From: Longicatena caecimuris
Lineage (GTDB): Bacteria > Bacillota_I > Bacilli_A > Erysipelotrichales > Erysipelotrichaceae
Direction of reading: 5' to 3'
Assembly (NCBI RefSeq): GCF_004341945.1
Contig: NZ_SMBP01000016.1
Location: 1 to 64,000 of the forward strand
Length of the DNA stretch: 64,000 nt
Shown here: in pieces, positions 56,804 through 58,418 of the stretch
How positions within the stretch are numbered: the stretch's first letter is position 1
Layout: each line of letters begins with the position of its first letter
The notes under the pieces: generated by a model
Database searches by the model: none
The model's input: only the letters and a program-made list of their open reading frames with translations
Told to the model about the DNA's origin: nothing
Made by a program: the position numbers and the translations under genes

Positions 56804-56832
56804 TTGACAAGATGTTTTCACAAGCGTAAAAT
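56804..56832 (+). promoter_or_regulatory. Sigma-A promoter of the arginine operon
   Basis: TTGACA (56804-56809) and TAAAAT (56827-56832) are 17 bases apart, placing the transcript start near 56839, directly before the T-box leader. Confidence 0.9.
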
Positions 56833-56838
56833 AAAGCC

Positions 56839-57069
56839 ATAAATCGTTGAACAGGAGAAGTAATGATAAGGGAACTGCAAAGCGAGCAGGGATGGTGGAA
56901 GCCTGTTAGGGAACTTATGATGAACACGCACCTGGAAGAGTCTGTGGGAAATGGTAGTATCACAGAACGCATATTTCGGCGTTACGAAAGAGGAATCATT
57001 GGGGATGTACCGATGATTACCGGAGTGGTACCGTGTGTAAGCGCCTCTGGAGCAATCCAGAGATTTTTT
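56839..57069 (+). ncRNA. T-box leader RNA, arginine specificity likely
   Basis: Stem I features are visible in order: AGTAATGA (AGTA/GA motif, about 56859), GCGAGCAGGGATGGTGGAAGCC (distal loop pair, about 56881-56902), and the specifier region TGAACACGCACC, where CGC at 56927-56929 is a likely arginine codon. The T-box itself is GGAGTGGTACCGTGTG at 57022-57036, whose TGGT part contacts the tRNA acceptor end. The terminator CTCTGG-AGCAAT-CCAGAG plus Ts is at 57045-57069. Uncharged tRNA-Arg should stabilise the antiterminator and let the polymerase into argG. A 74-codon open frame across this region is an artefact of the RNA sequence. Confidence 0.92.
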
Positions 57070-57101
57070 TGTATAGGAAGACTATAAGAGGTGAAAAGAT
57101 T

Positions 57102-57143
57102 ATGGAAAGAGTGAAACGACGATGCCGGCAGTATAGAGAATAA
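57102..57143 (+). CDS. Arg-rich leader peptide ahead of argG
   Basis: A 13-residue frame, MERVKRRCRQYRE, has five Arg codons (AGA, CGA, CGA, CGG, AGA) and is preceded by AAGAGGTG eight bases upstream. It lies after the T-box terminator and 48 bases before argG. Arg-rich short frames in the leader of an arginine operon are the mark of attenuation or stalling control. No further hairpin is obvious in the purine-rich stretch behind it, so it may act on argG translation. The chance of five Arg in 13 codons at this spot is low, but translation is unproven. Confidence 0.55.
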   Translation: MERVKRRCRQYRE

Positions 57144-57191
57144 GGATAAAGAATAAGAAAGAAAAAGAAAGAGAAAAGTGAGGATAAGATT

Positions 57192-58418
57192 ATGAAAAAA
57201 GAAGATATTAAGAAAGTCGTATTAGCATATTCCGGAGGTTTAGATACCTCTATCATTATTCCTTGGTTAAAGGAAAACTATAACAACTGTGAGGTTATCG
57301 CGGTATCTGCTGATGTAGGACAAGGTACAGAACTTGACGGTCTGGAAGAAAAAGCCATCAAAACAGGTGCCAGCAAGCTGTATATCTTGGATTTAAAGGA
57401 TGAATTTGTTGAGGATTACATCTATCCATGTTTAAAAGCAAATGCTGTTTATGAAGATGTGTATTTGTTAGGGACAGCCTTTGCCAGACCGTTGATTGGT
57501 AAAAAACTGGTAGAAATTGCTCAGCAAGAAGGAGCCGATGCCATCTGTCATGGTTGTACGGGAAAAGGTAATGATCAGGTTCGTTTTGAATTGGCAATTA
57601 AAGCTTTTGCCCCAGAGATGCCAATCATTGCCCCATGGAGAACATGGGAGCTGAAATCAAGAGATGATGAAATCGACTATGCACAAGCCCATCAAATACC
57701 ATTAAAAATAAACAGAGAAACCAATTATTCAAAAGATAAAAACCTCTGGCATTTATCACATGAAGGCTTAGATCTGGAAGATCCGCAGAATGAGCCAAAA
57801 TATGATGAAATCTTAGAAATGGGAGTAACTCCTGAACAGGCACCGGATACCCCAACCTATATCACCCTAACTTTTGAATCAGGTATTCCAACGGCATTGA
57901 ATGGTGAAAAACTAGGCGGTCAAGCAATGGTAACAAAGTTAAATGAAATTGGCGGTGCAAATGGTATCGGTTTGATCGATATGGTAGAAAATCGATTGGT
58001 GGGTATGAAATCACGTGGTGTATATGAAACCCCGGGTGGAACGATTTTGTATAAAGCACATCAATTATTAGAAAGCATTACATTAGATAAAGAAACAATG
58101 CATTATAAACAAGGGGTAGCGATTAAGTTTGGGGAAATCTTATACAATGGTCAATGGTTTACGCCATTACGCGAAGCATTGAGCGCATTCGTGGATAAAG
58201 TAAGTGAAAATGTCAGTGGAGAAGTGAAGCTGAAATTATATAAAGGCAACATCACACCGGCAAGTATTACCAGTCCATATACCTTATATTCCGAACAGAT
58301 TGCCAGCTTTGGAGAAGATGATTCTTATGATCAAAATGATTCTGCCGGCTTCATCAATTTGTTTGGTTTGCCAATTAAGGTAGCAGCAATGCAAAAGAAA
58401 ACTTGGAATAAAAAATAG
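57192..58418 (+). CDS. argG: Argininosuccinate synthase
   Basis: The 408-residue ArgG has the ATP-binding [15 protein letters not shown] near the start, [14 protein letters not shown] and the citrulline/aspartate-binding segments, at full length. It joins citrulline and aspartate using ATP, the penultimate step of arginine synthesis. It is the first gene of argG-H-C-J-B-D, under T-box control. GTGAGGA precedes the ATG. The order differs from the argCJBD-first arrangement of Bacillus. Confidence 0.97.

Follow-up and report, generated by a model that had tools for sequence, protein, structure and literature searches.

In-frame CGA-CGA leader frames behind arginine T-boxes of argG and amino-acid transporter genes in Erysipelotrichales

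Results

Structure of the argG leader

The window, 64,000 nucleotides of a Longicatena caecimuris contig (NZ_SMBP01000016.1, positions 1 to 64,000), contains an arg cluster headed by argG. The identity of argG follows from its match to NCBIfam PRK00509 (605.7 bits); the cluster continues with argH, argC, argJ, and argB-like frames, read from translations only. The parts of the argG leader are as follows.

56804..56832, + strand: sigma-70-type promoter-like site of the argG leader, TTGACA-17-TAAAAT (consensus scan, 11/12 matches)
56838..57051, + strand: T-box leader with specifier CGC (Arg) (Rfam RF00230, 87.7 bits, E 1e-19)
57045..57070, + strand: intrinsic terminator of the T-box, stem 57045-57062 followed by a U-run (terminator scan, fold)
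57087..57093, + strand: Shine-Dalgarno sequence AGAGGTG of the leader frame, 8 nt upstream of its ATG (sequence)
57102..57143, + strand: leader ORF MERVKRRCRQYRE (sequence; frame type conserved in 20 genera)
57117..57122, + strand: tandem CGA CGA, codons 6-7 of the leader ORF (in-frame pair in 86/89 distinct T-box leaders)
57180..57185, + strand: Shine-Dalgarno sequence GAGGAT of argG, predicted accessible (sequence; unpaired probability 0.81)
57192..58418, + strand: argG, argininosuccinate synthase, heading the arg cluster (Pfam, NCBIfam)

The T-box spans RF00230 model positions 1-219, the full length of the model, and its score sits just below the family's gathering score of 93; a default Rfam scan misses it for this reason. 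RF00230 scores in the argG and transporter leaders of relatives range from 99.7 to 132.1 bits. The specifier triplet lies at the bases where the Rfam consensus reads UUC in the RF00230 alignment and, as an Arg codon, agrees with the regulated gene. A T-box with a CGC specifier and a terminator before argG had been proposed in an earlier sequence-only reading of this locus, and is borne out by the Rfam match and the terminator stem. The acceptor-end bulge (57025-57032) reads UGGU, and the genome's own tRNA-Arg(ACG) (L267 1501-1577) ends GCCA; this places a G-U at the position usually matching the discriminator, and some relatives have UGGC. At the left window edge, positions 27-91 match the end of a group II intron (RF00029, 45.7 bits).

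Past the terminator, the leader ORF reads ATG GAA AGA GTG AAA CGA CGA TGC CGG CAG TAT AGA GAA TAA, and a gap of 48 nt separates its stop from the argG ATG. The same earlier reading had described this frame accurately, with its Shine-Dalgarno sequence, its five Arg among 13 codons, and its distance of 48 bases 5' of argG; the codon listing also agrees with its count of three CGA or CGG codons among the five.

A single tRNA for the specifier and the CGA codons

The tRNA-Arg genes of this genome have anticodons ACG, TCT, CCT, and CCG. Under standard decoding rules, CGU, CGC, and CGA are all decoded by the ACG (inosine) tRNA, CGA by this tRNA alone and through a weak I-A wobble pair. The T-box specifier is CGC in the window, and CGC or CGU in most of the relatives in which it is readable; because these triplets and CGA alike belong to the ACG tRNA, the T-box and the CGA codons of the leader frame read one tRNA. 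ArgR (PF01316) was not found in this genome.

CGA had earlier been put forward as a slow codon. It is indeed uncommon, at 4.4 per 1000 codons versus 17.2 for CGT; however, tandem CGA poses no impediment to translation in wild-type B. subtilis (PMC10454642), and stalling at the pair should consequently require undercharging of the tRNA.

Conservation of the CGA pair

The order, represented by 315 genomes, was scanned with a pattern of T-box, N30-60, ATG, N3-30, and CGACGA. This pattern matched in 81/315 genomes, which is a lower bound because the leader in the window exceeds the length that the pattern allows. The reversed pattern had no matches in the same 315 genomes, and substitution of TGGTGG for CGACGA left a match in 1/315; a CGBCGB control, which pools nine synonymous CGN pairs, matched in 10/309 genomes, many of these matches lying within genes.

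Among 89 distinct leaders, CGACGA is in frame with a start backed by a ribosome site in 86, mostly at codons 3-6; when the start is picked by Shine-Dalgarno strength alone, the three frames receive 84/3/2 leaders. Spacings from the start to CGACGA are 3, 6, 9, 12, 15, 21, or 33 nt. The codon preceding the pair is variable (GTC, AAA, GAC, GAG, GGC, GAT, and others), and the codon following it encodes Arg in 42/86 and Cys in 13. The recurring plan is a terminator, a Shine-Dalgarno sequence, an ATG, a variable stretch of one to a few codons, the in-frame CGACGA, and an unconserved tail, as in the peptides MKVRRCSIET, MFENVRRCRNRL, MKKVRRSTSRS, MQEDRRCPQAADA, MKQRRRNQ, MRERRRKT, and MEGRRCKLD. Conservation concerns the CGA pair and does not extend to Arg-richness, the peptide sequence, or the position of the stop; the earlier suggestion that the Arg codons themselves should be conserved holds for the pair at codons 3-6 and fails for the overall Arg content. 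Additionally, Arg codons at the leader start are CGA in 48/69 cases among unselected argG leaders, as compared with 3/152 in argG itself and 77/639 in the genes of the window, which indicates a constraint on the codon, beyond the amino acid.

Distribution among argG and transporter leaders

Upstream regions of argG were taken from 61/272 same-family genomes with an argG match, yielding 47 distinct T-box argG leaders picked regardless of motif. An in-frame CGA CGA within nine codons of a Shine-Dalgarno start is present in 24 of these 47, where dinucleotide shuffles of the same leaders predict 0.16; four further leaders keep a single in-frame CGA (28 observed vs 8.3 expected). About 40% of T-box argG leaders are without the frame, most of these being short leaders in which 48-85 nt follow the T-box. 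The frame depends on the T-box, occurring in 0/67 argG leaders without one.

In total, the 86 in-frame leaders span 20 genera: 29 are of the argG type, from 9 genera, and 57 are of the solute-binding-protein type, from 13 genera. All precede argG or an amino-acid transporter protein. Seven transporter proteins were examined, six of them SBP_bac_3 and one SBP_bac_5; in most SBP_bac_3 cases the Lys/Arg/Orn model TIGR01096 was the best or second match, at scores below its cut-off. The T-boxes of the transporter leaders were confirmed by Rfam. The short frame is not a chance occurrence, and very probably represents a selected, translated arginine leader.

The sequence-only reading had named loss of the frame or its Arg codons among relatives that keep the T-box as the outcome that would refute it; this check did not refute the proposal, as the frame recurs across these genera, although it is absent in the nearest relative of the window (G175). 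On the argG tree, presence of the frame requires about 7-10 changes, at least 5-6 of them forced by well-supported branches, and the frame has therefore been lost or gained several times. Beyond the order, no convincing case was found among 343 genomes of the same class. Two class-level pattern matches were rejected, one being coding sequence without a T-box and the other being a T-box followed by a normal coding frame that contains CGACGA. A plasmid search for the window leader returned no match.

The second Arg T-box of this genome (G000:C1:97049-97259; L197, L285) precedes a fused binding protein-permease gene and has no leader frame, so that in this species only argG has the second layer. 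In seven transporter leaders (L227, L231, L298, L300, L305, L308, L315), the CGA-CGA frame is stop-less and enters the gene in frame; the annotated starts of these transporter lipoproteins may be ambiguous.

Folding and spacing of the leader frames

Folding of the stretch between the ribosome site of the leader and the gene does not differ from that of shuffled sequences (median z 0.1, mean -0.15; 82 leaders), and the corresponding stretch of the window has almost no predicted structure (-3.3 kcal/mol, z -0.04). No alternative hairpins or terminator are predicted after the leader frame in these 82 leaders, and U5 runs are present in only 8. The z values near 0 and the few U5 runs argue against attenuation of the his/trp type. 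Among the folded leaders, the gene's Shine-Dalgarno sequence has a mean unpaired probability of 0.79; where both states were computed, this value is 0.80 for the free leader and 0.79 with a simulated stalled ribosome. Sequestration of the Shine-Dalgarno sequence as in ermC is likewise disfavored, as the gene's site is open with or without the simulated ribosome.

The leader start lies 10-31 nt past the U-run in nearly all leaders (median about 18). The distance from the CGA pair to the gene start is at least 48 nt, a figure that leaves out three miscalled gene starts (L314, L327, L328); a ribosome stalled at the pair therefore cannot cover the gene's ribosome site.

Discussion

Comparison with known systems

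The proposal of two-layer arginine sensing is well supported as anatomy by the conserved frames. The accompanying view that a T-box and a cognate peptide in series are unusual needs correction, since the B. subtilis anti-TRAP operon (Trp) precedes this case. In that operon (at, rtpA/yczA), uncharged tRNA-Trp is sensed in series by a T-box and by tRNA-dependent stalling of the ribosome (Chen and Yanofsky 2003, 2004, as cited in PMC11255114). As there, one leader combines a T-box with a short frame containing codons for the same tRNA: a ribosome-sited frame with cognate codons lies past the T-box terminator at 57102-57143 in the window and in 86/89 leaders overall. The second layer of anti-TRAP acts on translation via ribosome stalling, and that of the CGA-CGA frames would do the same. 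The two differ in that anti-TRAP concerns Trp and one operon, whereas the CGA-CGA frames concern Arg, occur order-wide, and serve two gene types. The anti-TRAP papers of Chen and Yanofsky reportedly place the leader stop next to the gene's ribosome site. The CGA-CGA leaders, unlike these, have a free stop position and a conserved pair near the start.

The S. aureus rbfL leader (PMC13009471) is, like the present frames, a short reading frame with Arg codons ahead of a gene in Bacillota mRNA, and it exerts translational control by the supply of charged tRNA-Arg, as the present frames would; unlike the CGA-CGA frames, rbfL has no T-box, uses AGA/AGG read by tRNA-Arg(UCU), and stalls ribosomes over the gene site, causing repression. 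Classic his/trp attenuators likewise place cognate codons in a short frame of the leader, but depend on alternative terminator/antiterminator hairpins downstream of the peptide, of which none are predicted here. In Erysipelotrichales, his operons have His leader peptides in place of T-boxes (PMC9413887). Lastly, in ermC-type 5' stabilizers (PMC3997798), a stall a few codons into a short leader frame protects the downstream mRNA, as may also occur here; the signal in that case is a macrolide, and here would be undercharged tRNA. No paper describing an arginine T-box with a leader peptide was found in the open-access literature. Tandem sensing by T-box and leader peptide is already known for Trp, and the recurrent, codon-specific Arg leader frame appears to be a new form of it.

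The same genome has a T-box with a TGG specifier (G000:C15:29721-29974; L284 222-475). Between it and a TrpX-like binding protein comes a frame that starts with GTG and holds two Trp codons (LKNAEEWRWC...), and in G084 (L391) the sequence MKEYDWWYRLKF is found at the position matching this frame. These Trp T-box frames may represent a tryptophan counterpart of the arginine arrangement.

Proposed mechanism

We interpret the leader ORF as a putative translated arginine frame in series behind an arginine T-box. In the T-box family, binding of the matching uncharged tRNA lets RNA polymerase pass the terminator. In the first layer, uncharged tRNA-Arg (anticodon ACG) would bind the CGC specifier and bring about terminator read-through. 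In the second, ribosomes would load at the strong site past the terminator and reach the two CGA codons, where undercharging of the ACG tRNA would cause them to stall within the first few codons. A ribosome stalled there would adjoin the terminator hairpin and shield the read-through mRNA on its 5' side; as 48 nt or more would separate it from the gene start, the gene's ribosome site would stay free. With ample arginine, ribosomes would run on and the 5' region would become exposed; in about half of the leaders, they would also cross the gene's own ribosome site. The net result would be expression dependent on persistently low charging of tRNA-Arg.

Starvation-dependent protection of the mRNA is favored as the second step because the stall would abut the terminator, the gene site stays free, and roadblocks stabilize Bacillota mRNA; where leader frame and gene site overlap, the stall would also hold leader ribosomes back from that site. 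Specifically, 5' roadblocks such as a stalled ribosome stabilize B. subtilis mRNA over long stretches, and the thrS/thrZ T-box leaders are cleaved just upstream of the terminator (PMC3997798). Points against this mechanism are the missing frame in G175 and at the genome's own second Arg T-box; additionally, the direction is opposite in S. aureus, where arginine limitation leads an Arg uORF to repress the gene it belongs to (PMC13009471). We assign the full mechanism, comprising the T-box and stall-dependent mRNA protection, a probability of roughly 0.45.

Alternative explanations

A rather unlikely, though the foremost, alternative is a release step similar to that of anti-TRAP: with ample charged tRNA, a terminating ribosome would cover the gene's site, and a starvation stall at CGA-CGA would free it. 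Series control by a T-box and leader-peptide stalling through tRNA-Trp is established for anti-TRAP (PMC11255114), and the stall site of the present frames precedes the gene's ribosome site in every case. The stop positions of 81 frames speak both ways. In 22 the stop overlaps the gene start and in 10 it falls within 20 nt (together 32/81), and 9 more frames enter the gene; however, in the other 40, including the window with its stop 48 nt upstream, it lies more than 20 nt upstream, a distance over which a terminating ribosome is unlikely to reach the gene's site. The stop position is, moreover, not conserved, with peptides ranging from 6 codons upward.

It is improbable that the frame is a repressive uORF like rbfL, in which a stall at rare Arg codons would lower expression of the gene, so that in severe starvation the T-box output would meet a brake or a band-pass filter. 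Such a system exists in another Bacillota species, as rbfL relies on rare Arg codons to sense arginine limitation and thereby closes off the rbf ribosome site (PMC13009471), and many of the present frames are translationally coupled to the gene, which 22 of them overlap. However, the rbfL stall covers the gene site, which the CGA pair is too distant to allow here, and there would be little physiological logic in braking biosynthesis when the cell is starved.

Less probable still is a role of CGACGA as an RNA or protein-binding element, for example by pairing with TCGTC in the 5' arm of the terminator or by binding a regulator. The identity of the motif at the nucleotide level and its fixed order after the terminator would fit such an element, and TCGTC, complementary to GACGA, is present in many terminators. 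The distance from start to motif, however, varies in whole codons (86/89), always behind a Shine-Dalgarno start, and the exceptions retain a single in-frame CGA. The motif is also transcribed after the terminator, too late for the T-box decision. The pairing version was rejected mainly on the whole-codon spacing, and also because the window terminator lacks TCGTC and the motif is nevertheless kept.

Neutral hitchhiking of a chance Arg-codon ORF between T-box and argG, which absence of the frame from G175 and many other argG leaders and the forced changes on the argG tree might suggest, is scarcely credible given the 24/47 leaders against an expected 0.16 and the recurrence of the frame across 20 genera, preceding unrelated transporter genes whose flanks are likewise unrelated.

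Implications

Tentatively, and with less assurance than for the mechanism itself, these leaders might constitute lineage-wide double tRNA sensors, in which each transcript that reads through an arginine T-box would also have to clear a CGA-CGA gate. They would probe the one tRNA first by RNA binding and then by CGA-CGA decoding, with the stall serving as a starvation-dependent 5' stabilizer and the pair selected for its weak I-A decoding.

The tandem of T-box and leader peptide was previously known for one tryptophan operon; an order of gut bacteria now shows a conserved, codon-specific arginine arrangement ahead of two gene types, in the present case in a genome where no ArgR was found. The arrangement supplies a simple sequence signature by which leader peptides missed in annotation could be spotted downstream of T-boxes. 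Strict use of CGA-CGA additionally raises a testable question, namely whether weak I-A decoding may serve bacteria as a tunable sensor of tRNA charging.
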